Position numbers and translations under genes: made by a program
Shown: positions 5,156 through 29,682 of the stretch, piece after piece
Numbering within the stretch: position 1 is the first letter of the stretch
Layout: each line of letters opens with the position of its first letter
Assembly: GCA_017306025.1 (NCBI GenBank)
Contig: JAFKJJ010000541.1
Span: forward strand, 1-51,677
DNA length: 51,677 nucleotides
Source of the DNA: Planctomycetota bacterium
GTDB lineage: Bacteria > Planctomycetota > Planctomycetia > Gemmatales > Gemmataceae
Direction of reading: 5' to 3'
Notes under the pieces: model-generated
What the model saw: only the letters and a program-made list of their open reading frames with translations
Database searches by the model: none
What the model was told of the DNA's origin: nothing

Positions 5156-5707
5156 TCAGGGCGATTGTCGCAGTTCCTCCCGGCGGCGCTGGTACAGGTC
5201 CGCAGCCTCGCGGAGGACGGCGAGTGCGGCTTCCCGGCCGTGGGGAGTTTCGACCGTCACCTCTTTCCCCTCCAGCGCCTTGTAGTCCTGGAAGAAGCGG
5301 CGCAACTCCAGCACCTCCGCGACCGACAGGTCGGAGAGGTCGCGCACGCCGGCGAGGAACGGGTCATCGACGTGGACGGCGATCAGCTTGTCGTCCTGCC
5401 CCTTCTCGTCGCGCATGGGCATCACGCCGACCGCCCGCGCCCGCAGCAGCACGCCCGGCACGAGGTCTTCCTTGCAGACCACCAGCACGTCGAGCGGGTC
5501 GCCGTCGGCGCAGTACGTGCGCGGGACGAACCCGTAACTGGCCGGGTAGTACACCGCCCCGTAGAGGATGCGGTCCACCCGCAGAAGACCGGTGGGCTTG
5601 TCCAGTTCGTACTTCACCCGGCAGCCGCGGTTGATCTCCACGAACACCGGGAACCAGTCGGCCAGGTCGTCGCTCAGCGGCACGTCGTGCCACGGGTGCC
5701 CCCGCAT
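5156..5707 (-). CDS. ppa: Family I inorganic pyrophosphatase
   Basis: Hydrolyses pyrophosphate to phosphate in the cytoplasm, pulling polymer synthesis forward. It is 183 residues, normal for bacterial family I. Visible motifs are the active-site VEINRG and VKYELD region, YPASYGFVP and the signature DGDPLDVLV with the metal-binding aspartates. Family I enzymes are classic fluoride targets, because fluoride traps the Mg-bound intermediate, which fits a place in a fluoride-controlled operon. The start codon overlaps the stop of the PAP2 gene (TGATG), so the two are coupled. No odd residues were seen. Confidence 0.95.
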   Translation of the reverse strand: MRGHPWHDVPLSDDLADWFPVFVEINRGCRVKYELDKPTGLLRVDRILYGAVYYPASYGFVPRTYCADGDPLDVLVVCKEDLVPGVLLRARAVGVMPMRDEKGQDDKLIAVHVDDPFLAGVRDLSDLSVAEVLELRRFFQDYKALEGKEVTVETPHGREAALAVLREAADLYQRRREELRQSP

Positions 5708-6492: not shown

Positions 6493-10396
<3,904 letters not shown>

Positions 10397-11709: not shown

Positions 11710-12501
11710 TCACAACTTGAATTCGGCGGTGATCGGGTAATGATCGGACGCGGCGTCGGTCCGCTCGTCGCGGACGACGGAGTAGGCCACGGTCTTCTCT
11801 GCCAGCGAGGCACTGGCGAGGAAGTAGTCCGACCGGAACGGGACGAATTCGGTGTTCGCGAAGCCCGCGCCCGGCACGGTCGGCTCGCCGTGGCGACCGA
11901 GGCGGTGGGCGAGGTCGGCGTAGCCGGCGCTGTAGAGCGTCTGGAGAACCCGGCGGTCGGCTCGACCGTCGGCGGAAAGGTAGCGGGCGCGGTGGTGAGC
12001 CGAGAGCGGCGTCCAGTCCGGCTCCGGGTCGAGCGGAGAGACGGAGTTGAAGTCGCCCGCGACCAAGGCGAATCCGTCCGCGGCGGCATGCGCAACGAGG
12101 TAGGCGGCCTCGGCCAGGCGGATGTGCGATCCGTTCGGGCACAGGTGGACGCTGACGAATGTGACCGGCCGCGTGAGGCCCGGAACTCGCAGGGTGACGG
12201 TCGCCGCCGCGTGGTGGAAACGGGCCGAGTCACCCTCGAACGCGACCGGCGTGAGCTCCGGTCGGGCGAACACGGCCGTGTGCTGGCCGGTGTGAGGGGC
12301 GACGGCCAGAAACCCGCGCATCCCCAACGCGTCTTCGGTCTCGCAGAGCCGCCGGTGACCGTTGTGGTCGTAGTGCCTGCACTCCTGGAGCAGAAGTACG
12401 TCGGGCTTCTCGCTCGTGATGACCTCGCGCTGGGCACGGCACCGCCGGTCGTCGCCCCCGTCCCACCCGCCGAACAGCGTGTTGTAGCTCATCACTTTCA
12501 T
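11710..12501 (-). CDS. Endonuclease/exonuclease/phosphatase-fold protein
   Basis: 263 residues of the Mg-dependent EEP superfamily (DNase I/exonuclease III/sphingomyelinase fold). Motifs are VMSYNTLFGG, the metal Glu in LLLQECRHYD, VSVHLCPNGSH, AGDFNSVSPL and the closing SDHYPI. No signal peptide is visible, so a cytoplasmic role is likely; the substrate could be nucleic acid, phospholipid or inositol phosphate. The ATG overlaps the upstream DUF190 stop by four bases. Its presence adds one more Mg-phosphate enzyme to the operon. Confidence 0.85.
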   Translation of the reverse strand: MKVMSYNTLFGGWDGGDDRRCRAQREVITSEKPDVLLLQECRHYDHNGHRRLCETEDALGMRGFLAVAPHTGQHTAVFARPELTPVAFEGDSARFHHAAATVTLRVPGLTRPVTFVSVHLCPNGSHIRLAEAAYLVAHAAADGFALVAGDFNSVSPLDPEPDWTPLSAHHRARYLSADGRADRRVLQTLYSAGYADLAHRLGRHGEPTVPGAGFANTEFVPFRSDYFLASASLAEKTVAYSVVRDERTDAASDHYPITAEFKL

Positions 12502-13259
12502 CCCGCGGCCTCCGTGGGTCGCAGCATCTTCACGCCCTCGATGGTGATGAGGCCCTCCGGCACGGCCTCGTCCAGGAATGGCAGCAGCCGACCGATCTCG
12601 TCGGGGGTTCCGACCACCTCGATCAAGAGCGGCAACTCTGCGACGTAATCGGGAAACTGGTCGGTGTGCAGCCGCTGGTGCGTGCCGAAACCCTTCGGTG
12701 CCCGCAGCACCACGGCGTTCGACAGGCCCAGGTCGCGTGCCCTCTCCAGCACCGCCCGGTAGAGCGGCTGCCCCTGGAACTTGTCGGTGTCGTCGATGAA
12801 CACCCGGAGCAGTTGCCCCTCGACGGTGGTGCGCATGACCGGGAACTCCTCTGGGCTCGGCAGGTACGCGGCCGGGTCGGAACGGTCGGGTGCTTGCAGG
12901 TGAGGCGCGACCCACGCCGCGTCTTTCTCTCGCTTGCGGTAGGCCAGAACGTGCACCCGCTCCAGGGTGGCGAGGGTGCGGGGGGAGACAGCGATCACGT
13001 CATTGAGGAAGCCGCCGACGGCTTGGGGGCTGTCGAGGAACTCCAGGATGACCGGACGGTGTTCCACAATGGCCCAACGCCCGGACTCGACCGGTTCGCC
13101 GCCCACCAGTCCGCAGATGCCCTCCAGGGACGTCGCGCCTTCCAGCTCCCGTCCCATCGCCAGCTTGAGGAGCGCGTCCTGTGCGTTGCTCCACCAGGAC
13201 ACCTTGTCGGTGTTCTTCAGGAAGATGCGGAGGAGCGTCTGATCGCCTTCCAGTTTCAA
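12498..13259 (-). CDS. Tandem DUF190 protein
   Basis: 253 residues made of two DUF190 units. The first (about residues 8-110) has LLRIFLKNTDKV and HRPVILEFLDSP. The second (about 140-250) has LLRVFIDDTDKFQGQPLY, GFGTHQRLH and PLLIEVVGTPDEI. The second half resembles the single-domain DUF190 protein beside crcB. It overlaps the antiporter gene by four bases upstream and the EEP gene by four downstream. It may regulate the adjacent antiporter as the single DUF190 is presumed to do for CrcB; this is inference from synteny. Confidence 0.85.
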   Translation of the reverse strand: MKLEGDQTLLRIFLKNTDKVSWWSNAQDALLKLAMGRELEGATSLEGICGLVGGEPVESGRWAIVEHRPVILEFLDSPQAVGGFLNDVIAVSPRTLATLERVHVLAYRKREKDAAWVAPHLQAPDRSDPAAYLPSPEEFPVMRTTVEGQLLRVFIDDTDKFQGQPLYRAVLERARDLGLSNAVVLRAPKGFGTHQRLHTDQFPDYVAELPLLIEVVGTPDEIGRLLPFLDEAVPEGLITIEGVKMLRPTEAAG

Positions 13260-14563
13260 GGGTCACCTCCAGACGTCCTCCCCCGCACCGGGCGGGGCGG
13301 GCGGCCGTTCAATTCGGGCGACAAGTCCAGGACCGGTTCGCCGTCGAGGTCGGGCTTGCCGTCAAGGTGGGCCGGACGGATCACGAGGCCGCCGGTTGCC
13401 GGCGTGACGCGCGGCTCGAAGAACGCCTGGGCCACCACCGTCGGCACGATCGCGCTGGCGATGACGACCGCGACCAGGATCGAATACTGTTCCTGGTCGA
13501 TCTTCCCGTTGTTCAGGCCGAACAGCGCGGAGATCGTGCCGAACGTCAGCCCGGTGGACATGAGGAGCGTGGTGTACTTCCCCTCGCGCTTCCCCATGCC
13601 GTAGAACCGCGTCAGCGGCCACACGCCGACCACCTTCGCCCCGACCTTCACGAGCAGGAGGACGACCACCAGTCCGAGGCCGGTCCAGGTGAAGAGGACC
13701 GGCAGCGATACTTTCGTGCCGGCCAGGAGGAAGTAGAACGGTGTGGTCAGCGCGAACACGGTGGTCCGCATGCGGCGGACCGCGTCCCGCTGGCGGGCCA
13801 TCACCCCGGCCAGCGCGATCCCGATCAGGTACGCCGGCAGCACGGCCTCACTGTTGGCCGCCGCGGCCAACGCCCCGAGCCCGAACAAGAGGCCGAAGAT
13901 CAGCTTGATCCCCGGCTCGCTGACTTGGTTGCCGTACTTGGCGAAGAACCCGCCCACGACGCGCGGGGTGAGCGGAACCACGACGGCGAGGACCGCGATG
14001 AGGATGAGGAGAGTGGCGTCGTAGTGGGCGAAGCACGCGCCGAGGGCCACCACCGTCCCGAGATCGGTGACGAAGCAGGCGGCCAGGATCACCTTGCCCA
14101 GTTCCGTTTCGTTCAGCCCGGTCTCGACCATGACCGCGTACACCACCGCGACCGAAGTGGTCGAGAGGGCGATCCCGCAGATGAGCGCCGCCTCCCACTC
14201 CCACCCGACCACGAAGCGGGCGAACGCCACCGCGGCGACGAACGGGACGACGAAGCTCACGAGGCCGATCGCGAGGCTCTCCTTGTAGTGCCGGCGCAGC
14301 ACGTCCGGCTCGATCTCGGCCCCGGCCAGGAAGGTGAGCAGCATGCTCCCGAAGCCCGCTAGGAATAGGAGCCACGGGCGGACCTCGAGTTTCCAGCCGA
14401 ACCCGAGGAACTGCTGTTGGGAGAGGTAGACGGCGAGGTTCCCGGCCGCGACCCCGACGAGGATCTCGACGAGCGCGACACTCTGCTTCAAGCGGACGGC
14501 GGCGAGACTGGCCACGAGGGCAAGGGCGATCCACGTCGCGGCGATGCGGTAGTCGGCCTGCAT
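13256..14563 (-). CDS. Cation/proton antiporter (CPA2, KefB/NhaS3-like)
   Basis: 435 residues with about twelve transmembrane segments, monovalent cation:proton antiporter-2 type. Visible family features are FLAGAEIEPDVL, the GIALSTTSVAVVYAV stretch, ACFVTDLGTVVALG with the conserved acidic pair region, and LLMSTGLTFGTISALFG. There is no TrkA-N domain at the carboxy end, only a short Pro-rich tail. The ATG at 14563 follows GAGGGG. This is the first gene after the fluoride aptamer and its terminator. Na/H antiporters are known members of fluoride regulons, probably because HF entry acidifies the cell. Confidence 0.9.
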   Translation of the reverse strand: MQADYRIAATWIALALVASLAAVRLKQSVALVEILVGVAAGNLAVYLSQQQFLGFGWKLEVRPWLLFLAGFGSMLLTFLAGAEIEPDVLRRHYKESLAIGLVSFVVPFVAAVAFARFVVGWEWEAALICGIALSTTSVAVVYAVMVETGLNETELGKVILAACFVTDLGTVVALGACFAHYDATLLILIAVLAVVVPLTPRVVGGFFAKYGNQVSEPGIKLIFGLLFGLGALAAAANSEAVLPAYLIGIALAGVMARQRDAVRRMRTTVFALTTPFYFLLAGTKVSLPVLFTWTGLGLVVVLLLVKVGAKVVGVWPLTRFYGMGKREGKYTTLLMSTGLTFGTISALFGLNNGKIDQEQYSILVAVVIASAIVPTVVAQAFFEPRVTPATGGLVIRPAHLDGKPDLDGEPVLDLSPELNGRPPRPVRGRTSGGDP

Positions 14564-14624
14564 GTGCCCCTCGTGGTGGGTCGGGACACGAGGTGGGCGG
14601 CGCGAACAACCGCGCAAACGCCAC

Positions 14625-14653
14625 GACCCCGCGGGAAGGGCTCCCGCGGGGTC
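14625..14653 (-). terminator. Expression-platform hairpin of riboswitch at 14694-14744
   Basis: On the minus strand GACCCCGCGGGA pairs perfectly with TCCCGCGGGGTC across a short loop. It lies between the aptamer and the antiporter start, as expected for a transcription-terminating platform. The following bases (GTGGCGTTT) form only a weak U tract, so termination strength is uncertain. Confidence 0.7.
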
Positions 14654-14693
14654 GAGTGAGGTCAATACCTACTCGAAGGGCGGTTGCCCCTGA

Positions 14694-14744
14694 GTAGGAG
14701 TTATTAGCCACGTAAGTGGCGGTTCCGTGGCGAACTCCATCGCC
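14694..14744 (-). promoter_or_regulatory. Fluoride riboswitch (crcB motif) controlling the eleven-gene operon
   Basis: Reading the minus strand: GGCGATGGAGTTCGCC, then AACCGCCACTTACGTGGC, then TAATAACTCCTAC. This is the crcB aptamer layout: a GGCGA/TCGCC hairpin whose loop GGAGT pairs with the 3' ACTCC, and a second helix GCCAC/GTGGC. Compared with the other three aptamers here, the usual TGATGA before CTCC is TAATAA, so two conserved-looking positions are changed. Downstream CCTACTC can pair with GAGTAGG at 14671-14677, which gives a competing fold. It leads the operon that includes crcB, eno and ppa. Confidence 0.93.
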
Positions 14745-14756
14745 TTCGCTTTTGTC

Positions 14757-14936: not shown

Positions 14937-16598
14937 TTACCATTTGAAAGAGTACTGTATGTAGAACAGTGAGGGGCTGGCTTGTGGGCCTGGAGTATTG
15001 TGGATAAATGAACCGGCAAACAGAATCGAATACCCGACGAAAAGATCCTGGTGCAGGCTCAGGTGGAAGTTGGTCGTGAAGTCGATCTCCTGGCCCACGA
15101 ACGTCCCCGCCCGCCCCGTCGGATCGCTCCGGATGACCGTCCCGCTCGCGTTGTAAAGGCCATCTCGGGGGCTGTCCAAGTTGAATACGTGGTACTGGAG
15201 CGTTGAGAGGATCCACTTCGTCGGATAGCAAGCGAATTGCACGCTCAGGTCGTCAATGTTCGACCGACCGACCAGATCGAGATACCCCAAATAGGTGTGC
15301 CCCCAGGGGAAGAGTTGGTTGAACGTCCCGTGGGTGTTCCCCCGCCCCGGATTCTGGTTCCCCGAGGCCCAGTCGTTGTAAATCCAGAACTGCGGATTGA
15401 ACGGCAGGCCGGCGAACGCGTACCCGACCCCGGACGTGACGGCACCGGCCGAGATGACCTGGTTCGACCACGAGCCGAACTGGTACATCGCCTCGAAGTC
15501 CCACAGGTAATGGTTGGACTCGCCAGCGTACCGCGTCCCGATCGTGCTGACGTTGTAGCCGCCGACGGCGCCGTTGCGTCCGACGGCGACCCCGGGGTTC
15601 CGGTTGTCCAAGTTCAGGTAATAGAAGTCGGCGGCCTGTCCGTCGCGCGGCCGGTACGTCGCCCACGCGCCCGAGAAGTTCTGGTTGTGATCGGGCGGGT
15701 CGGCCGTCGTCGCGCGCATCAGCACCGGCTGCACCCAAAAGGCGTCCACGGTCCAGTCCTCACCCAGCCAGAAGGTCCGAACGCCCTGGAACGTCCGCCG
15801 GACGTTGGGGAAGTCCGACGGGCCGATCAGGCGCTGCGAGCCGAAGTACAGTTCCTGTCGGCCGACCCGCGCATAGACCGGTCGGTCCCCCGCGGAAAAC
15901 AGTCTGGCATCGACGAACAGGTTCAGCAGGTCCGCGTGATCCACGTCGTTGCCGAGCGGCGGCAAGGAATTGCCGGCGATGCGCGAGTCCTGCACCTCCG
16001 CATACAGGCGGAAGCGGTCGCGGTACCACAGGTCGCCGTAGACGCGCGAGCGGGTCAGCTCGTAGACGTTGGTCGTCCCGGTGAACCGGGCGTACCCGCC
16101 GTTATCGTCCATGAACCGGACCCGTTCTTCGCCGCCGACCGACAACGTCCAGTCGTCGCCGACGCGCATGCGCTTGAGGCCCGTCAGGAAATCGGTCTGC
16201 CCGGAGTCGGGTGAGTCCAGGTACCGGTAGTCGGCGTCGTAGAACGAATAGCCGTCGCTGAGGACGGGCGGGTACGGCGTCTTCGGCGGCCCCGAACGGG
16301 ACTCGCCGAGAACCCGGTCCCGCAGCGAGTAATAGCCCGGCCCGGTGGGACCGATGACGAAGTAGCCGATGCGGGCCATGGGGCGGAACGGCGTCGGCAC
16401 CCCCAACGCGGTCAGCCGGTTGAGTGGGGGTTCGACCGGCTTGTCCGGCGCGGGCGCTTCGGGCTGCGCTCCCGCACTCGGTGCCGGATCCGTCTGCGGG
16501 TCGGCCTGCGCTCGCGCGGGTGTGGGCGGGAGGAAGCCCAGAGCGGCCACCAGAGCGATCGACGCCCGCTTGGCGACAACCACGAATGACGAAGACAT
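14937..16598 (-). CDS. Alginate-export-type outer-membrane porin
   Basis: 553 residues with a signal peptide (SIALVAALGFLPPTPARAQA) and then beta-strand-rich sequence with repeated aromatic-polar alternation, ending in the terminal strand FYIQYSFKW with an aromatic last residue, as expected for a barrel. Segments such as YARVGRQELYFGSQRLIGP and the RTFQGVR region resemble the alginate_export porin family. Such porins often carry sugars, acids or anions; the substrate is unknown here. It has its own fluoride aptamer upstream, so it is expected to be induced by fluoride. The start at 16598 follows GAGG. Confidence 0.8.
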   Translation of the reverse strand: MSSSFVVVAKRASIALVAALGFLPPTPARAQADPQTDPAPSAGAQPEAPAPDKPVEPPLNRLTALGVPTPFRPMARIGYFVIGPTGPGYYSLRDRVLGESRSGPPKTPYPPVLSDGYSFYDADYRYLDSPDSGQTDFLTGLKRMRVGDDWTLSVGGEERVRFMDDNGGYARFTGTTNVYELTRSRVYGDLWYRDRFRLYAEVQDSRIAGNSLPPLGNDVDHADLLNLFVDARLFSAGDRPVYARVGRQELYFGSQRLIGPSDFPNVRRTFQGVRTFWLGEDWTVDAFWVQPVLMRATTADPPDHNQNFSGAWATYRPRDGQAADFYYLNLDNRNPGVAVGRNGAVGGYNVSTIGTRYAGESNHYLWDFEAMYQFGSWSNQVISAGAVTSGVGYAFAGLPFNPQFWIYNDWASGNQNPGRGNTHGTFNQLFPWGHTYLGYLDLVGRSNIDDLSVQFACYPTKWILSTLQYHVFNLDSPRDGLYNASGTVIRSDPTGRAGTFVGQEIDFTTNFHLSLHQDLFVGYSILFAGSFIHNTPGPQASPSLFYIQYSFKW

Positions 16599-16665
16599 CG
16601 CGACCTCGGTTCATTCCCGGGAAGGGGGGAATAACACCGAGCCGGGACGGTTCGAAGTGCGTGCC

Positions 16666-16695
16666 ACTCCTACCGCCGGCCGGCGCGGTAGGAGT
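16666..16695 (-). promoter_or_regulatory. Competing hairpin of the porin riboswitch
   Basis: ACTCCTACCGC, the 3' strand of the aptamer on the minus strand, pairs perfectly over 11 bases with GCGGTAGGAGT just downstream. The hairpin therefore competes directly with aptamer folding. No U tract follows, so it may act without simple intrinsic termination, or the terminator lies elsewhere. Confidence 0.65.
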
Positions 16696-16736
16696 CATCA
16701 GCCCGAACAAGGGCGGTTGCGGGGGACTCCATCCCC
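16688..16736 (-). promoter_or_regulatory. Fluoride riboswitch (crcB motif) upstream of the porin gene
   Basis: Minus strand: GGGGATGGAGTCCCCC, AACCGCCCTTGTTCGGGC, TGATGACTCCTACC. It has the same architecture as the other three. The first helix is GGGGA/TCCCC instead of GGCGA/TCGCC, a compensatory change that supports a real RNA structure. It is placed about 90 bases before the porin start. Confidence 0.93.
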
Positions 16737-17071
16737 AGTCATGTCAGGTGCAAAGCACTCGGGTGCGTTCCGTTCGCGTCCAAGATGCCCTCCCTGGATC
16801 GGCAGAACCACTGTGCCGGCTTGAGAGCAGGTATGCGGTTCGTTTACGGCAAGAGATAGTTCGCAGCGCACGACGAAGCGGCTGGTCGCCTGCGCCCGCA
16901 ACCGAAAGGCTTCTTTCAGGAAAGCCGGTTTGGCAGGTTGAGGTGCGGGCTGCTGCTTTAGTCTCCCGGTTCTGAATGCGGGCGTGCCGTCAACGGAGGG
17001 GGATACCGTGCCGATCAAAACCACCGACCGCAGGCGCGGCGGTTGCACCGTGTCGCCCGGAGGAACTACTC
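16737..17071. other. Divergent intergenic region, no gene recognised
   Basis: Lies between the porin leader (minus) and mgtC (plus). It should hold both promoters. A TGACAT close to the porin aptamer could be its -10 element, but no good -35 is seen. I found no aptamer in front of mgtC. Confidence 0.45.
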
Positions 17072-17970: not shown

Positions 17971-17982
17971 TTCCAACTTGAT

Positions 17983-18060
17983 GGCGATGGAGTTCGCCGA
18001 AACCGCCTCGACAATTTCGGGGCTGATGACTCCTACCCGGATGCAAATCCCGGTAGGAGG
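17983..18060 (+). promoter_or_regulatory. Fluoride riboswitch (crcB motif) upstream of the SulP operon
   Basis: GGCGATGGAGTTCGCC at 17983-17998, AACCGCC at 18001-18007, a 7-pair helix GCCTCGA/TCGGGGC, then TGATGACTCCTACC. The loop GGAGT can pair with ACTCC as in known fluoride aptamers. The 3' strand CTCCTACC also pairs with GGTAGGAG at 18052-18059. When the aptamer holds its strand, the freed GGAGG at 18056-18060 can pair with CCTCC at 18073-18077, inside the terminator 5' arm, which explains how fluoride would turn the operon on. Confidence 0.95.
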
Positions 18061-18115: not shown

Positions 18116-18184
18116 CCGGGCCTCTCGGGCCTCGATGGACACCGCCCTCACCGGGTGCCACTGTCCCTCCGAGGCCCGACCGTC

Positions 18185-19993
18185 ATGGCCGAACCCAGTG
18201 TGCCGAACGGCACCGAACGGACCGCACCGCCCGGGCCCCGCGCCAGTCGATGTGCGGACCTGTTGTCCGGGCTCCTGGTGTTCCTGATCGCCATGCCGCT
18301 GTGCCTGGCCATCGCCCGGGGGAGCAACTACCCGCCGGTCGCCGGCATCTGGACCGCCGTCATCGGCGGGATCGTGACCACCTTCGTCAGCAACTCCCCC
18401 CTGACCATCAAGGGACCCGCCGCCGGGCTCATCGTAATCGCCGCCGGAGCCGTGGCCGATCTGGGCAAAGAGTTCTGTCCCGCTCTTCCTACAGACGAGG
18501 TGGCCGCGCTGCGGGCCGAGAACCGCACCGACGACGAGATCGCCCGTCGAGCGGAGGCCCGCCAACTCGAAGCCGGGTACCGGCTGGCCCTCGGGGTCGG
18601 GGTCGCGGCGGCCGCGATCCAAGTCCTCCTCGGCCTGCTCCGGGCGGGCTCCCTCGGGGACCTCTTCCCGCTGGCCGCCATCCGCGGGATGCTCGCGTCG
18701 ATCGGCGTCATCATCATCTCCAAGCAGGCCTACGAGGTGCTCGGCGGCGTCCCGGAGAAGGGAGCCGGTCCGCTGCGCCTGCTCGCCGACCTGCCCGAAG
18801 CGGTGCGGGACTACAACCCGGCGGTCGCCTGCGTCGGCCTCGTCGGTCTGGCGATCCTGTTCGGGCTCCCGTTCGCCCCCGGCCGGACCAAAAGAATTCC
18901 TGCCCCGCTGCTCGTGCTGCTCGCGGCCGTCCCCCTGGGCCTCGTCTTCTCCTTCGCGACCGAGCACGCGTACGTGTTTCACGACGGAGTCTTGTGCACG
19001 GAGAACCGCGCCTATCAGGCCGGGCCTCGATTCCTGGTGAACGTGCCCGACGTGAAGGCGGATCCGGGGGCCGCGTTCGCCCTCCCCGACCTCCGCGGGG
19101 TGCCCACGCCGACCGGTCTGAAGTACGTCGCCCTCTTCGCCGTGATCGGGAGTCTGGAGTCGCTCCTCGCGGCCAAGGCGCTCGACCTGCTCGACCCGTG
19201 GCGTCGGAAGACCGATCTGAGTCGCGACCTGTTGGCCACGGGCGTGGCCAACGCCGTGTGCTCGGCGGTCGGCGCGCTGCCGATGATCTCCGAGATCGTC
19301 CGCAGCAAGGCGAACGTCGATAACGGGGGGCGCACGAAGTACGCGAACTTCTTCCACGGCGTGTTTCTGCTCGTGTTCGTTGTGCTGGTACCGGGGCTGA
19401 TCTGCCACATCCCGCTCGCCGCCCTGGGGGCGATGCTCGTCTACACCGGGTTCCGGCTCGCCCACCCGCGCGAGTTCGTCCGCTACTGGAGGATCGGCCG
19501 GGGGCAGTTCGTCGTGTTCGTCGGCACGATCCTCGCGACCCTGGCTACCGACCCGCTCGTCGGGATCGCGGCGGGGGTCCTGCTGGAGGCCGCCCTCCAC
19601 CTATGCAACGGCGTGCCGCTGCGGTCCCTCTTCGTGTTCGACGCGGAGGTGGTGAAGCGGGGCGGGTGCGAGTTCCAGATCGTCGTCCATCGGGCCGCGG
19701 TGTTCGGCAACTGGCCGGCCCTGAAGCGGAAGATCGCGCGCCTCGGTCCGGACGCGGACGTGACGGTCGACCTGTCGGGGGCGCGGTTCGTCGATCACAC
19801 CGTCATGGAGAAGTTGCACGAGACGGAGCGGGAGTTTGAAGCACGCGGCCGATCCTTCGTAGTCACGGGACTGGACGGGCACCGCCCCCTCTCGTCCCAC
19901 CCGCTCGCCGCCCGGAAGAAACTGATCCCGCGGTGCTCGTGCCGGAAGCGGGAGGAACCGGATTGGCCGGAATACCCGCGCGGGTGCCCGTGA
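18185..19993 (+). CDS. SulP/SLC26-family anion transporter with STAS domain
   Basis: 602 residues. The membrane part begins at about residue 22 (ADLLSGLLVFLIAMPLCLAIA, with the conserved anion-site region) and runs through GPAAGLIVIAA and GSLESLLAAKALD to about residue 475. A carboxy-terminal STAS domain follows at about 490-585 (DVTVDLSGARFVDHTVMEKL). SulP proteins carry sulfate, bicarbonate, chloride or dicarboxylates. A fluoride-controlled copy might handle bicarbonate for pH repair or an anion exchange; no fluoride selectivity can be read. The ATG at 18185 follows GAGG; an earlier in-frame start would lie next to the terminator. It is first in a five-gene operon. Confidence 0.9.
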   Translation: MAEPSVPNGTERTAPPGPRASRCADLLSGLLVFLIAMPLCLAIARGSNYPPVAGIWTAVIGGIVTTFVSNSPLTIKGPAAGLIVIAAGAVADLGKEFCPALPTDEVAALRAENRTDDEIARRAEARQLEAGYRLALGVGVAAAAIQVLLGLLRAGSLGDLFPLAAIRGMLASIGVIIISKQAYEVLGGVPEKGAGPLRLLADLPEAVRDYNPAVACVGLVGLAILFGLPFAPGRTKRIPAPLLVLLAAVPLGLVFSFATEHAYVFHDGVLCTENRAYQAGPRFLVNVPDVKADPGAAFALPDLRGVPTPTGLKYVALFAVIGSLESLLAAKALDLLDPWRRKTDLSRDLLATGVANAVCSAVGALPMISEIVRSKANVDNGGRTKYANFFHGVFLLVFVVLVPGLICHIPLAALGAMLVYTGFRLAHPREFVRYWRIGRGQFVVFVGTILATLATDPLVGIAAGVLLEAALHLCNGVPLRSLFVFDAEVVKRGGCEFQIVVHRAAVFGNWPALKRKIARLGPDADVTVDLSGARFVDHTVMEKLHETEREFEARGRSFVVTGLDGHRPLSSHPLAARKKLIPRCSCRKREEPDWPEYPRGCP

Positions 19994-20071
19994 GGAGAAG
20001 TGCGACGCACGAGCGCCCGGCGTTCGCCGCCCGTCACGCATTCCGAACACACGTTTCCGGCTGGGAGGTTG

Positions 20072-21490
20072 ATGATGAGACGGATCGGGATTCTAACGGC
20101 CGGGGGCGACACGCCGGCCCTGAACGCGACCATCCACGGGGCGGTCACCCGCGCCAGCCAGCGGAAGGTCGAGGTCCTCGGGTTCATCAAGGGGTTCAGC
20201 GGGCTGTTCAACCCCCGCGTCCCCCACGTCCACCTGAACCCGCTCTACAGCCCGGTCCCGGAACTCGACCCCACCCTCGGCGGCACCCTGATCGGGGCGT
20301 CGCGCGACTACGTCAACGCCGAGGACACGGCCGGCGTGGACCTGATCGCCGGTCGGCTCGAAAAGCTCGGAGTGGAAGGGCTCATCTGCGTCGGCGGCGA
20401 CGGCACGCTCAATGGAATGCAGGCGCTCTGCCACCGCCTGCCGACCGTGCTTGCTCCGAAGACGATCGACAACGACCTCGGGCTGAACTACCGCCACGAG
20501 CCGGACGAGTGGGTCCGGTTGCCGGAGGCCGCCGACCACGAGATCCCGTCCGGCGAGGTACGCGCCAAGGGCGCGCACCGATACGCGTGGACGCCGTCCC
20601 GCACCCGGTTCGACATCGACCAGATGGTGAACTACGTCACCCCCGGCTACGCGACCGCGGTGTTCGTGTCGGCGATGGGGGTGCAACGGGTTCGGACGAC
20701 GGCCGAGAGCCACCGGCGCATTGCCATCATCGAGGTCATGGGTCGGCACTCCGGGTACATCGCCTTGGGGGCCGCCTACGGGCAGCCGGACCTTCTGCTC
20801 GTGCCCGAGAGTCGGTTGAACGTGGACGCGCTCGTGGAGCGGGTGAAAGAGATCTACGACCTCCAGAAGCACTGCGTCATCGTGTGCGGGGAGGGGATCG
20901 TGGACGAGCACGGGCAGGAACTCGGTGCCGAACACGTCACGACCGACCCGTCCGGCAACGTGGCCCTGAGCGGGGCGTCGGAGGCCCTGCGGGCGGTCCT
21001 CGTCAAACGGCTCGGGGACGAGTACTTCACCAGCAAGCGGCGGAACGAATCGGCGCGGGCGGCGATCTTCACGCGCAAGGTCGGGCACACCCAGCGGGGC
21101 GGGCGGCCGATCCTGTTCGACCGGTTCCACGCCGCGCAACTCGGCGGGCACGCCGTGGACATGCTGCTCGAAGGTCGGATGAACGCGGTCTCGGTCCTCC
21201 AGTACTCCCGGGGTCGGGGCTTCCACTTGGGCGCGGTCGAGGCGAATGAATTCCGCGACCGGTGGGGGCTGATCCACGCCCGGCGGATGCACCCGAGCTT
21301 TTACGACCCGCTCCTGATGCGACCGAGCCAGACCGGTGTCGACTACCTGCACCCGATTTTCGACAAGGCGGTCGGGGCGGACGACGTCGAGGTGCTTCGG
21401 TCGGCCCTGTTCGATTCCAGCCACCTGCGGATGCCGTACCACTCGGTCAACACGGACGTCGGAAAGCGCATCCGGTATCTGGACGGATGA
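20072..21490 (+). CDS. 6-phosphofructokinase family (ATP or PPi type)
   Basis: 472 residues (one more Met is possible at 20075). PFK-A fold: GILTAGGDTPALNATI at the nucleotide loop, CVGGDGTLNGMQAL, the catalytic PKTIDNDL and substrate region EVMGRHSGYIALG. The nucleotide position is Gly (GGDGT), usual in ATP enzymes, while PKTIDND has the Lys usual in PPi enzymes, so the phosphoryl donor is undecided. Start chosen by GGGAGG upstream. It is longer than E. coli PfkA, with an insert around residues 125-160. In a fluoride operon it fits with extra glycolytic capacity, as enolase does in the other operon. Confidence 0.9.
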   Translation: MMRRIGILTAGGDTPALNATIHGAVTRASQRKVEVLGFIKGFSGLFNPRVPHVHLNPLYSPVPELDPTLGGTLIGASRDYVNAEDTAGVDLIAGRLEKLGVEGLICVGGDGTLNGMQALCHRLPTVLAPKTIDNDLGLNYRHEPDEWVRLPEAADHEIPSGEVRAKGAHRYAWTPSRTRFDIDQMVNYVTPGYATAVFVSAMGVQRVRTTAESHRRIAIIEVMGRHSGYIALGAAYGQPDLLLVPESRLNVDALVERVKEIYDLQKHCVIVCGEGIVDEHGQELGAEHVTTDPSGNVALSGASEALRAVLVKRLGDEYFTSKRRNESARAAIFTRKVGHTQRGGRPILFDRFHAAQLGGHAVDMLLEGRMNAVSVLQYSRGRGFHLGAVEANEFRDRWGLIHARRMHPSFYDPLLMRPSQTGVDYLHPIFDKAVGADDVEVLRSALFDSSHLRMPYHSVNTDVGKRIRYLDG

Positions 21491-21610
21491 CCGCCCTCCG
21501 CCGGCGTCCCGCCGTTCGTTCTGCCGAACCACAGCGGGTGCGAGAGTGGAATGATCGATCGCGTTCCCGGCCGCGTCACCCGCCGCGGCCGACAAAGGAG
21601 AGCCGTTCCC

Positions 21611-21895
21611 ATGAACATCCGGCGTCTGCTGCTCGACGTGGACAAGGCCATCGCCCGCCCCTCCATCCTGGACATCGCCAAGGCCGTCAGCGGCTGCACG
21701 GGGGTCGAGGGCTTCAACGTCCGGGTCGGGGACATCGACATCGAAACCGTCTCGATGGACGTGACGGTGGAGGGCACGAACCTCGACTACGAGGCGATCG
21801 TCCGGGCGATCGAGGGGACCGGCGCGGTCGTCCACGGCCTCTACCAACTCGCCGCCGGTGAGCGGGTCGTCGAGGCCGAGGAGCGGAAGCGATGA
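21611..21895 (+). CDS. DUF211 protein
   Basis: 94 residues matching the DUF211 family (MNIRRLLLDVDKAIARPSIL at the start, then GVEGFNVRVGDIDIETVSM). Members have a ferredoxin-like fold and bind ligands at subunit interfaces in crystal structures, but their role is unknown. The stop overlaps the next ATG by four bases, so it is coupled with the VIT-like protein and may regulate it, much as DUF190 pairs with CrcB. Start chosen after AAAGGAGAGCC. Confidence 0.85.
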   Translation: MNIRRLLLDVDKAIARPSILDIAKAVSGCTGVEGFNVRVGDIDIETVSMDVTVEGTNLDYEAIVRAIEGTGAVVHGLYQLAAGERVVEAEERKR

Positions 21896-22440
21896 GCCGC
21901 ATCCTGTCCTACGTCGTCCGGCGGGAAAACGTCCGTTCGCTCATCGCCGGGGTGTGCGACGGGATCCTGACCGCGCTCACCCTCACCGCCGCCCGCCTGC
22001 TCGATCCGGCCTCCCCGGTGGGCTACGGCCTGGCCGTCCGCGTCGCGGCGGCCGCCTTCCTCTCCGGGGCGTTCGTGTTCTTCGTCGCCCACTACGCCGA
22101 ACTCCGGGTCCAGTTGGTCCGCGCCGAGCGGGAACTGAACCTCACGAGCCACGGCCGGCTCGCGACGACGCGGCTCGGCCGGGCGGTGGCGGCGGAGGCG
22201 GCGACCGCCGCACTGGTCGCGAGCCTAGCGTGTTTCGCCGGTGCGCTGATCCCGCTCCTCGTGGCCGCCGCGATCCCGCGCCCGACGTGGCTGGGGATCG
22301 GCGTCGCGATCGCGGCCCTCGGCGTCCTCGGCGGGATCCTGGGCTGGGCGGTGTACGGCCGCCCGCTCCGCTGGGCGGTGCTGTTGACCGCCGGCGGCGG
22401 CGTCCTGACCGCGATCGGGGCGCAACTCCATGTCGTCTGA
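21892..22440 (+). CDS. VIT1/CCC1-like membrane protein
   Basis: 182 residues with about five hydrophobic segments. The first helix carries [18 protein letters not shown], similar to the N-D-G-hydrophobic start of VIT1/CCC1 iron-manganese transporters and their DUF125 relatives, and the loop [18 protein letters not shown] corresponds to the cytosolic region. It is shorter than yeast CCC1. A role in divalent metal or membrane homeostasis is possible. Coupled to the DUF211 gene by overlap. Confidence 0.65.
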
Positions 22441-25849: not shown

Positions 25850-26643
25850 TCCCCCGACGGGAGGTGCACCGGTACTTGATGAGGAACGCACGTCCCGCCT
25901 GCGGAGTCGGGAGGCGATCCGCCACGCGGCGATGCAGAGGATCACGATCCCGGCCGCGGTCCAAGCGCCCCACCCGAGCCAGCGCCGAAGGGCTTCCCAT
26001 GCGTGCCCGAATGAGTGCCCCAACACCGCCACCGTTGTGACCCAGACGAACGCCCCCGCGGCGTTGGCGGTGACGAACCGCCGCCACGGCATGCCGGCCG
26101 CCCCGGCCGCGGGCCCGGTGACCATGCGCAGGAGGGCGACGAACCGGGCGAAGAAGACCGTGGCGGCCCCGTACCGGGCGAAGTACTCTTCGGCCCGGGC
26201 CATGCGGTCGGGGGTCAGAAGGAGGAACCGGCGCCCGGCCTTCAGACGGGGACGAGCGAACCGGCGACCGAGCCAGTAACCGGCGTTGTCTCCGGTCACG
26301 GCGGCCGCGAATCCGACGCCGATGATGACCCACAGGCGCAATCACCGTCCGCCGTCCGGACTGGACAGGTAGCCGGCGGCGAGCAAGGCGGTCTCACCGG
26401 GGACCGGCACGCCGGCGTTCTCCAGCAGGACGACGAGGCCCAAGGCCCAGTACCCGTGAGTGGCACACAGCGCGAGCAGATCGGACACTCCGCGTCCTCC
26501 GGGCGTGACGACGAGGAATCCCGGTGCAATGGCGGTGCCGCTCGCGACGCGGTGATTCGCGGCCTCGCGGTCGTCGGGCGAGAGAAAATCGGTTCCCGGG
26601 CTTGTCTTTGCGCGCAGGCGCGGGAACAATACGACAATTCGAC

Positions 26644-26728
26644 GGCGATGGAGTTCGCCATAACCGCCCCGGCTAACGCCCTGCCGTGGCTGATGACTCC
26701 TACTTCTGGGGCTCTCCCGGGGTAGGGG
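26644..26728 (+). promoter_or_regulatory. Fluoride riboswitch (crcB motif) upstream of metallophosphatase-dynamin operon
   Basis: GGCGATGGAGTTCGCC at 26644-26659, AACCGCC at 26661-26667, a helix GCCCCGGC/GCCGTGGC with one mismatch, then TGATGACTCCTAC at 26691-26703. CCTAC can pair with GTAGG at 26722-26726 as a competing fold. Freed GGGGT (26725-26729) is complementary to ACCCC (26750-26754) in the terminator, a plausible antiterminator. Confidence 0.94.
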
Positions 26729-27648: not shown

Positions 27649-29682
27649 GTGAATCCGTTCAACCCGTCACAGAGCCGCAGCATCGCCATCAGCTTCCAGT
27701 GCATCCACGGCCGGCTAGCCGACATTGAGGCGATGCTCGCACGGTCGGAAGTCGCGTCCCAGTTCTCCGAATACACCCCGGACCTGTCGCCCACGGAGCA
27801 GCGGATCCTGCGGGACTATTTCGGCCAGGTTCGGGCGGCCATGCTCGCGCTGCTCCAGGACTGTGGCATTCCGCTCGGGGTCCAGCGGAGGAGCCTCCGG
27901 TGGGGGGTGCAGGTCCACCTCGGGATGATCGGGGTCGCCCTCGCCGACCTGGGGCCGCGCAGCCTGGAAGGGTACGGGGCGCTGGGCGAGTCCGCGTGGG
28001 ATCGGGCCGTCCGGATCCGCCAGGAACTCGACCGCCTGGTCGATCGCGTGTACACGTTCCTCGCCCGGCACCGGGGGCCGGAACTGGCGGCCCGGCTGGT
28101 CCGCCTCGGCGCGGCCGCGGGAGCGGACGAACTCCGGTTGATCGACCGAGTGGTCACCCGCTGGGGCCTCGTCGCGTTCCACCCCCAGGTCGCCACCCTG
28201 GCGCGCCGGCTGGAGGCCCCGGAGTTCGAGGTCGCGGTGTTCGGCCGGGTCAGCTCGGGTAAGTCGTCGCTGCTCAACCACCTCGCCTGCTCGGACGTGT
28301 TGCCCGTTGGGGTCACGCCCGTGACCGCGGTCCCGACCCGCCTGACCCGCGGTGCCGCGGCGGAATGCGTGATCACGACGGCCGAATCCGGTCCCCGCGC
28401 TGTCCCGGTCGTGGAGCTGAAGGAGTACGCATCGGAGTATGGGAACGCCGGGAACCACAAGCACGTCACCGACATCCTGGTCCGGGTGCCGTCCCCCCGC
28501 CTGTCCGACGGGATCGTGCTGGTGGACACACCGGGCGTCGGTTCCCTCGCCCAGGCCGGGGCCGCGGAGGCGATGGCGTACCTGCCGCGGTGCGACCTCG
28601 GCGTGGTGCTCGTGGACGCGGCCTCGACCCTGAACGCCGACGACCTCGGGCTGGTCCAGCAATTGACCGACGCGGGCACCCCCGTTCAGGTTCTCGTGAG
28701 CAAGGCGGACCTGCTCTCGCCGGCCGACCAGATGCGCTCACTCGCCTACGTCCGGAACCAACTCCATCGGGAAACCGGGACCGACGTCCCGGTCCACGCG
28801 GTGAGCACGGTCGGGGCCGGCGAGGAACTCTTGAGCCGGTGGTTCGCGGAGGAGATCGAGCCCCTGTTCCGGCGGCACCGGGAGTTGGTCGGGGAATCGA
28901 TCCGGCGGAAGATCACGGGCCTTCGCGCGGCGGTAGCCGTCGTATTGCAGACGATGGCCGACCGGGGGTCAGCAGTAGCCGGTCGCGGGGGTCCGAAGAC
29001 CGTGGGGGACGCCCGGACCCTTCTGGAGGCCGCCGACCGCGCGGTGCAAGCGGCGCGGGACCGTGAGCGGAGCGGGTACGGGGCCGCCGACCTCCTGACC
29101 GAGCAGGTGCTGGAGGAAGCCCGATGGGGCAGCGGCACGGGCGCGGTGGCGCAGGCGGCCGCAAAGGTGCTGTCCCGGAGGGGTCAGGAGGCGGTGTCCC
29201 TGGCCCGCGATCTCCAGACGACTCTCACCCGCGCGCTGGAGGAGTTGGCCGCGACGGGGTTTGTTGCCGGGGTCGATCCTTCCGCGGTCGTGCGCGTCCC
29301 GCTGCGCGGTTTGCCCGACGCCGACTTGAAGACCTTGGCGGACGACCGGAACGGCCGACTGTCGTGGTGGGGGGTGATCCCGGGCCTGAAGCCTCGGGCG
29401 TTGCGGAGTCGGTTCGGTGCACCGCTCCGGGGGTTGATCGACGGGTACGACAGTGCCCTCCGGCTCTGGCTCCGGGCGGCACAGGATCAACTCGTCGAGG
29501 CGTTCGAGTCGCAGGCCGAGGTCGCGCGGGAGCAAGCGCGGCGGCTCGCCGCCGCGCCGGAAAGCGGTACTCGCGACGATCAGGCCGACCTCGCCGCTGA
29601 CATCGGGGAACTGCTCGGCAATGGACTCGCACCGCGTGTCGGTCCAGAAAGCGCCGAGCCGGTCGCCGCGCGGGTGGAGTGA
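27649..29682 (+). CDS. Dynamin-like GTPase
   Basis: 677 residues from a GTG start; the frame is open further upstream into the phosphatase gene, so the start is a judgement. GTPase motifs: G1 FGRVSSGKSSLLN at about residue 197, G2 region TPVTAVPTRL with Thr, G3 DTPGVGSLA, G4 SKADLL. Long helical regions flank the G domain on both sides, as in bacterial dynamin-like proteins that remodel or protect membranes. It is second in the operon behind the third plus-strand regulatory element and so is probably induced by fluoride. Membrane repair during stress is a reasonable idea but not shown. Confidence 0.82.
   Translation: MNPFNPSQSRSIAISFQCIHGRLADIEAMLARSEVASQFSEYTPDLSPTEQRILRDYFGQVRAAMLALLQDCGIPLGVQRRSLRWGVQVHLGMIGVALADLGPRSLEGYGALGESAWDRAVRIRQELDRLVDRVYTFLARHRGPELAARLVRLGAAAGADELRLIDRVVTRWGLVAFHPQVATLARRLEAPEFEVAVFGRVSSGKSSLLNHLACSDVLPVGVTPVTAVPTRLTRGAAAECVITTAESGPRAVPVVELKEYASEYGNAGNHKHVTDILVRVPSPRLSDGIVLVDTPGVGSLAQAGAAEAMAYLPRCDLGVVLVDAASTLNADDLGLVQQLTDAGTPVQVLVSKADLLSPADQMRSLAYVRNQLHRETGTDVPVHAVSTVGAGEELLSRWFAEEIEPLFRRHRELVGESIRRKITGLRAAVAVVLQTMADRGSAVAGRGGPKTVGDARTLLEAADRAVQAARDRERSGYGAADLLTEQVLEEARWGSGTGAVAQAAAKVLSRRGQEAVSLARDLQTTLTRALEELAATGFVAGVDPSAVVRVPLRGLPDADLKTLADDRNGRLSWWGVIPGLKPRALRSRFGAPLRGLIDGYDSALRLWLRAAQDQLVEAFESQAEVAREQARRLAAAPESGTRDDQADLAADIGELLGNGLAPRVGPESAEPVAARVE

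Follow-up and report, generated by a model that had tools for sequence, protein, structure and literature searches.

Fluoride riboswitch aptamers in front of outer-membrane porin genes of two families in planctomycetes

The window analyzed here, one whole contig of 51,677 bases (C492) from a planctomycete draft genome (707 contigs, 82% complete), contains an outer-membrane porin gene directly behind a fluoride riboswitch aptamer. We propose that this porin serves fluoride resistance under riboswitch control, being produced in response to fluoride and providing a passive exit from the periplasm, and we assign the whole statement, control and exit together, a probability of about 0.5. The two parts carry different weight. 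Judged from sequence comparisons, the porin is very likely under genuine fluoride control, because the aptamer-porin pair is conserved in other genomes and a second, independent porin family has the same arrangement. That the pore then serves as a fluoride exit is an evenly balanced proposition. The pairing of aptamer and porin apparently arose twice, in unrelated porin families. A fluoride-controlled porin had been proposed in a sequence-only reading of the window, and conservation together with the independent second case now gives that interpretation strong support.

The fluoride island and its porin gene

All four fluoride aptamers detected in this genome are located on the window contig, where they are spread over about 12 kb. 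The aptamer that precedes the porin gene (16682..16745, minus strand) matched the full RF01734 model (positions 1 to 64) with a cmscan score of 56.9 bits (E 3.3e-13), exceeding the curated gathering score of 34; the span first assigned to it, 16688-16736, is the core of this match (16745-16682, minus strand). The porin gene (14937..16598, minus strand, ATG at 16598) encodes a protein of 553 aa with an N terminus that, by eye, resembles a signal peptide. Residues 152-538 matched PF13372 (Alginate_exp) with an E value of 2.2e-86 and 290.6 bits, against a curated score of 25.2. The predicted model, computed from 15 sequences, is an outer-membrane barrel (mean pLDDT 76, pTM 0.76) for which two programs returned AlgE as the best structural match (Foldseek, 4xnk, E 8.8e-17; VIA-align, AlgE 5d5d, Z 27.5, 353 residues, rmsd 2.8). 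No sequence-level PDB relatives of the porin or its profile were found. The Pfam match and the AlgE-like predicted fold bear out the original assignment of the gene as an outer-membrane porin. We considered and rejected a function in alginate export: no alginate synthesis genes were present among the scanned window genes, and the porin belongs to PF13372 as a member of the fold family only.

The porin gene stands alone behind its aptamer, as had been claimed; the first feature that follows on its strand, 183 nt downstream, is a second minus-strand fluoride aptamer (14688..14753, 53.0 bits). Leftward of this aptamer, all on the minus strand, are genes for a cation:proton antiporter (PF00999 by Pfam, 13256..14563), a DUF190 protein (12498..13259), an endonuclease/phosphatase-fold protein, an MFS transporter, a type I phosphodiesterase, the CrcB fluoride channel (PF02537, 8157..8573, 105.2 bits), a second DUF190 protein (7800..8138), enolase (6493..7779), a PAP2 phosphatase, and inorganic pyrophosphatase (5156..5707). 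Enolase and pyrophosphatase are fluoride-sensitive enzymes. Gene spacing suggests that the run from antiporter to pyrophosphatase is a single transcript. We describe the porin as part of a fluoride island because it shares the contig with CrcB, the DUF190 proteins, enolase, pyrophosphatase, the antiporter, and the other aptamers. Exporters, antiporters, enolase, and pyrophosphatase are named as typical fluoride-riboswitch genes in PMC11139923.

The two remaining aptamers are on the plus strand, one before a SulP transporter gene (17974..18042, 59.1 bits) and one before genes for a YfcE-type phosphoesterase and a dynamin-like GTPase (26635..26709, 52.8 bits). Behind the former, window positions 18155-22440 encode the SulP transporter, a phosphofructokinase-like protein, a DUF211 protein, and a small membrane protein. 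Dynamin-like GTPase genes are a recurrent companion of fluoride aptamers, located behind them in several genomes (window 27649-29682; L036:5762-7786; L043:5252-7321; L049:3608-5719). Fluoride aptamers also preceded cytidylate-kinase-like genes at two loci (L045:588-1953, tested against PF13189, and L054:3978-5349, which clusters with it).

Aptamer-linked porins in two unrelated families

We searched 102 genomes of the window's order for fluoride aptamers, which matched in 21 of them, and for porin relatives at E values up to 1e-20, which were present in 80. An aptamer lies directly before a porin gene in three: the window's own genome, G036 (L038, contig C338), and G037 (L034, contig C342). 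The latter two belong to another genus, encode porins 61 to 63% identical to the window porin, and carry the aptamer 44 to 69 nt upstream of the called porin start. Ordinary members of the family are mostly 42 to 51% identical to the window porin (two are at 31 to 33%, and some short fragments are higher). In a tree of 43 rows, the three aptamer-linked porins form one clade (support 100/100, stem 0.53). Two further genomes of the same genus as G036 and G037 (G038 and G039) encode porins from a different part of the tree, and the aptamer-porin pair was therefore probably transferred or replaced.

No fluoride aptamer was detected in 20 ordinary PF13372 porin loci searched with their flanks, and a profile search of 27 order-level, 28 class-level, and 40 phylum-level loci returned no further PF13372-aptamer pair. 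No broadly conserved neighbors of the ordinary members were seen in the listed gene neighborhoods, which were partially scanned with Pfam. A search of genome contigs for the porin returned three loci, two of them the G036 and G037 contigs, and a search of viral contigs returned no porin relatives. In G037, the fluoride-porin leader has a c-di-AMP riboswitch aptamer (L034:7504-7659) immediately upstream of it, encoded on the other strand, and elsewhere in this genome a fluoride aptamer precedes a gene for an HlyD-type membrane-fusion protein (L050:5569-7393).

A screen at class and phylum level yielded 112 aptamer places, some further places, mostly the weakest, having been left out. A same-strand gene was called within 600 nt of the aptamer at 84 of the 112 places, and none was called for the other 28. 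The first gene behind the aptamer encoded a porin in 9 of the 84 cases, three of them PF13372 and six PF07396 (Porin_O_P), the latter assigned by partial Pfam matches. The crude barrel screen relies on a simple gene caller, so more porin-aptamer pairs may exist. A weak Porin_O_P-like match was observed about 3 kb behind the aptamer at L157. At another locus (G075, L041:5009-11299), the aptamer is followed by genes for an outer-membrane efflux protein, an HlyD-type fusion protein, and an AcrB-type RND pump, which could possibly form a fluoride-induced tripartite exporter.

The six aptamer-linked Porin_O_P genes (L104, L106, L107, L108, L110, and L111) come from six genomes (G153, G165, G185, G194, G236, and G230) of family f3, another planctomycete family than the window's. 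Porin_O_P relatives are common in f3, occurring in 42 of the 45 genomes searched and often in several copies. The six, together with one neighbor in an island, are 64 to 100% identical to the query, and all other f3 relatives are at most 50% identical except for a 94-residue fragment at 55%. The aptamer-linked genes were monophyletic (SH-aLRT 100, stem 0.54) in a rapid, bootstrap-free tree of 28 rows, two of 30 rows having been dropped for lack of columns. Twenty further Porin_O_P loci, 19 with ordinary members or paralogs and one with the island neighbor, contained no fluoride aptamer; for this neighbor, the seventh member of the clade (L111:9223-10944, minus strand), 701 upstream bases were searched to an E value of 1. 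G153, G165, G185, G194, and G236 each yielded no fluoride aptamer other than that of the porin, and each encodes CrcB on a different contig. A single porin gene as the only detected target of the riboswitch is hard to explain by chance.

Fluoride exit or nutrient uptake

CrcB is a fluoride channel, and planctomycetes have unusually large periplasmic spaces, in which an exit step would matter more. We postulate that the porin would insert in the outer membrane, forming an AlgE-like barrel, and open an additional passive route connecting the periplasm with the exterior. Fluoride exported to the periplasm by CrcB would then leave the cell rather than accumulate and re-enter as HF, and the greater pore conductance would shorten its stay in the periplasm. 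At acid pH, periplasmic fluoride re-forms HF and returns; such re-entry is described in PMC11139923. Anion exit from the periplasm through the porin is a plausible prediction, and we infer that fluoride is among the ions that would pass through the pore. A counterpoint is that the rate at which fluoride passes ordinary porins may already be sufficient.

Neither net charge nor clade-specific residues revealed a signature of fluoride or anion selectivity in either porin family. Barrel net charges of the three fluoride-linked PF13372 porins are -6, -9, and -2, and the mean of 39 ordinary members is -3.1 (standard deviation, 5.5; the long-branch row G071 is excluded from this comparison). Only four columns are specific to the fluoride-linked clade. 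Twenty charged residues, ten of them arginines, are invariant in 15 PF13372 members, but they are common to ordinary members too and so give no evidence for a fluoride role. In Porin_O_P, with three short rows left out of the residue and charge comparison, the fluoride-linked clade is more negative on average (-7.2 versus -4.1; standard deviation, 4.9), and W and A stand at two positions where most ordinary members keep basic residues, a difference that speaks against a simple gain of anion selectivity.

An alternative hypothesis is that the fluoride-induced porin imports solutes that run short under fluoride: phosphate, Mg2+, carboxylates, or sugars in the case of an enolase block. The fluoride genes of the window include the pyrophosphatase, the PAP2 phosphatase, and the type I phosphodiesterase, and PMC11139923 links fluoride stress to phosphate handling and ion transport. 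Phosphate-selective porins gave the second porin family its name; the members found here were recognized by partial matches, which make no statement on selectivity, and the lack of the two otherwise common basic residues in the fluoride-linked clade counts against this hypothesis. The window porin resembles by fold AlgE- and OprD/Occ-type porins, whose substrates are acidic organic solutes, but the ordinary PF13372 members offer no conserved neighbors that would name a substrate. We favor fluoride exit and regard nutrient uptake, possible although rather less probable, as its main and serious rival.

Leader hairpin, sign of the switch, and known systems

The expression-platform hairpin of the porin leader, H1 (16666..16695, minus strand), has 11 perfect pairs and a loop of 8 nt, exactly as first read. 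Its 5' arm, ACUCCUACCGC, overlaps the 3' pseudoknot strand of the aptamer and covers ACUCC (16691-16695), which agrees with the proposed competition between hairpin and ligand fold, and H1 lacks a U tract, there being 0 T in the 8 bases behind it. The 51.7-kb window has five separate sites with a perfect hairpin of at least 11 bp and a loop of 3 to 10 nt, H1 included, and one of the four others (14624-14654) is likewise in a fluoride leader. Folding of the 181-nt porin leader gave a z score of -2.24, with 2 of 200 shuffles equally stable. Hairpins of at least 8 pairs that use the 3' strand of the aptamer are widespread, occurring in 94 of 108 scorable leaders (112 in total), and many leaders of the window's order have H1 followed by a separate terminator-like hairpin.

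The three PF13372 leaders (window, L034, and L038) all keep the H1 pairing, some of the pairs being G-U in the two relatives, and none of the three has a U tract behind H1 or a strong second terminator. A loose scan found weak terminators in all of them, with stems of 6 to 8; that of the window leader has an 8-bp stem and the tail TGTTATTC, and a stricter terminator scan of the window leader listed none. The sequence-only reading had contrasted the porin leader with the other three aptamers of the window and suggested that its control mechanism may differ. The contrast in U tracts requires correction, since the other three also lack one directly behind the first hairpin. The aptamers at 17974 and 26635 have a second, 14-bp terminator-like hairpin downstream of the first, and the aptamer at 14753 has a strong second hairpin (14624-14654) that lacks a U tract. 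A differing mechanism finds support in the shared anatomy of the three PF13372 leaders, and the simple translational version of it fails in both relatives, as follows.

Folding alone predicts a hairpin (16605..16641, minus strand) that pairs with the porin ribosome-binding site (GAGG, 16604-16607). Constrained folds of the window leader computed without the P3 stem enforced have the ribosome-binding site and the start codon base-paired in the free state, and forcing the aptamer reduces this pairing. With P3 enforced, the modeled cost of opening the start site fell from 15.2 kcal/mol to 12.3 kcal/mol in the ligand-bound state, a drop of about 3.0 that was reached by 5 of 200 shuffles. The corresponding drops in the relatives are -0.3 and 1.7 kcal/mol, inside the shuffle range. 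Translation control as a general model was not adopted on this comparison of ligand-free and ligand-bound opening energies, which fit the window leader only; for that leader, modeling leaves translational control as a candidate.

No terminator lies right behind H1 in the window leader, and the sign of the switch is therefore unreadable from leader anatomy. In each of the six Porin_O_P leaders, H1 is directly followed by a U-rich run (5 to 7 T of 8), the ordinary ON-switch layout, and PMC11139923 describes fluoride riboswitches as increasing expression. By analogy with the class and with this layout, we infer that fluoride turns the window porin on. Cytosolic fluoride and Mg2+ would fold the aptamer, the pseudoknot would take up ACUCC, H1 would be unable to close fully, and porin expression would rise; H1 would presumably act in this way even though it has no U tract.

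The opposite sign is unlikely: fluoride would then lower porin output, or exchange the pore for a tighter one, and so bar fluoride or acid. The missing terminator behind H1 would accommodate such a switch, and the aptamer-linked gene is the only PF13372 porin found in the window genome; in G036 and G037 it is the only relative of the window porin found. The described behavior of the riboswitch class, the ON layout of the Porin_O_P leaders, and the modeled start site of the window leader, which opens more easily when bound, all point the other way. HF also crosses lipid, and closing a pore would be of little help against it. That the aptamer is a leftover or hitchhiker that exerts no control over the porin beside it is very improbable: four fluoride aptamers within about 12 kb and a porin lineage that seems to move between genera would suit a rearranged island, but two genomes with porins about 61% identical to the window's preserve the order of aptamer, hairpin, and porin, and an aptamer-linked clade exists in a second porin family too, where the porin aptamer is often the only one of the genome.

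To our knowledge, the known fluoride defenses act in the cytosol and at the inner membrane. How fluoride leaves the periplasm of two-membrane bacteria, where HF that re-forms can return at once, is a gap that becomes testable with a porin whose only visible regulator is a fluoride riboswitch. Our results suggest that fluoride defense in this soil-type planctomycete and its relatives also involves the outer membrane, a contribution that has been overlooked. If fluoride passage is the function, fluoride export would be a two-membrane process, in which CrcB serves the inner membrane and an induced porin the outer one, and in some species the porin would be the only gene under a fluoride riboswitch. 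We advance more tentatively the broader idea that outer-membrane passage is a regulated step of fluoride detoxification in planctomycetes, for which porins of unrelated families were recruited at least twice as dedicated clades. Outer-membrane channels would thereby join the genes under fluoride riboswitches, a point relevant to engineered degraders of fluorinated pollutants, whose growth is limited by released fluoride.

What appears to be new is the tie, found twice, between a known aptamer class and an outer-membrane function. At the level of abstracts, with the gene tables of the 2012 discovery paper outside this scope, we found no paper linking a fluoride riboswitch with a porin, and porins are not among the regulated genes named in the consulted parts of PMC11139923, PMC2864571, and PMC7266159. 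The window aptamer is a full match to the fluoride riboswitch (crcB motif, RF01734), and the competition of H1 with the 3' pseudoknot strand is as described for terminator-controlled fluoride riboswitches in PMC2864571. It differs from the class in its target, an outer-membrane porin, and in a platform hairpin that lacks a U tract. The porin shares its Pfam family and fold with the alginate exporter AlgE (PF13372; PDB 3RBH/4AFK) but is only 12 to 14% identical to it, is a single gene under a fluoride aptamer, and was not seen in an alginate gene neighborhood. The substrate-specific OprD/Occ porins have a similar barrel (Z about 21 to 25, 8 to 13% identity), a weaker match than AlgE. Porin_O_P (PF07396; OprP/OprO) is a different family from that of the window porin, and it is this family that stands behind fluoride aptamers in related genomes.
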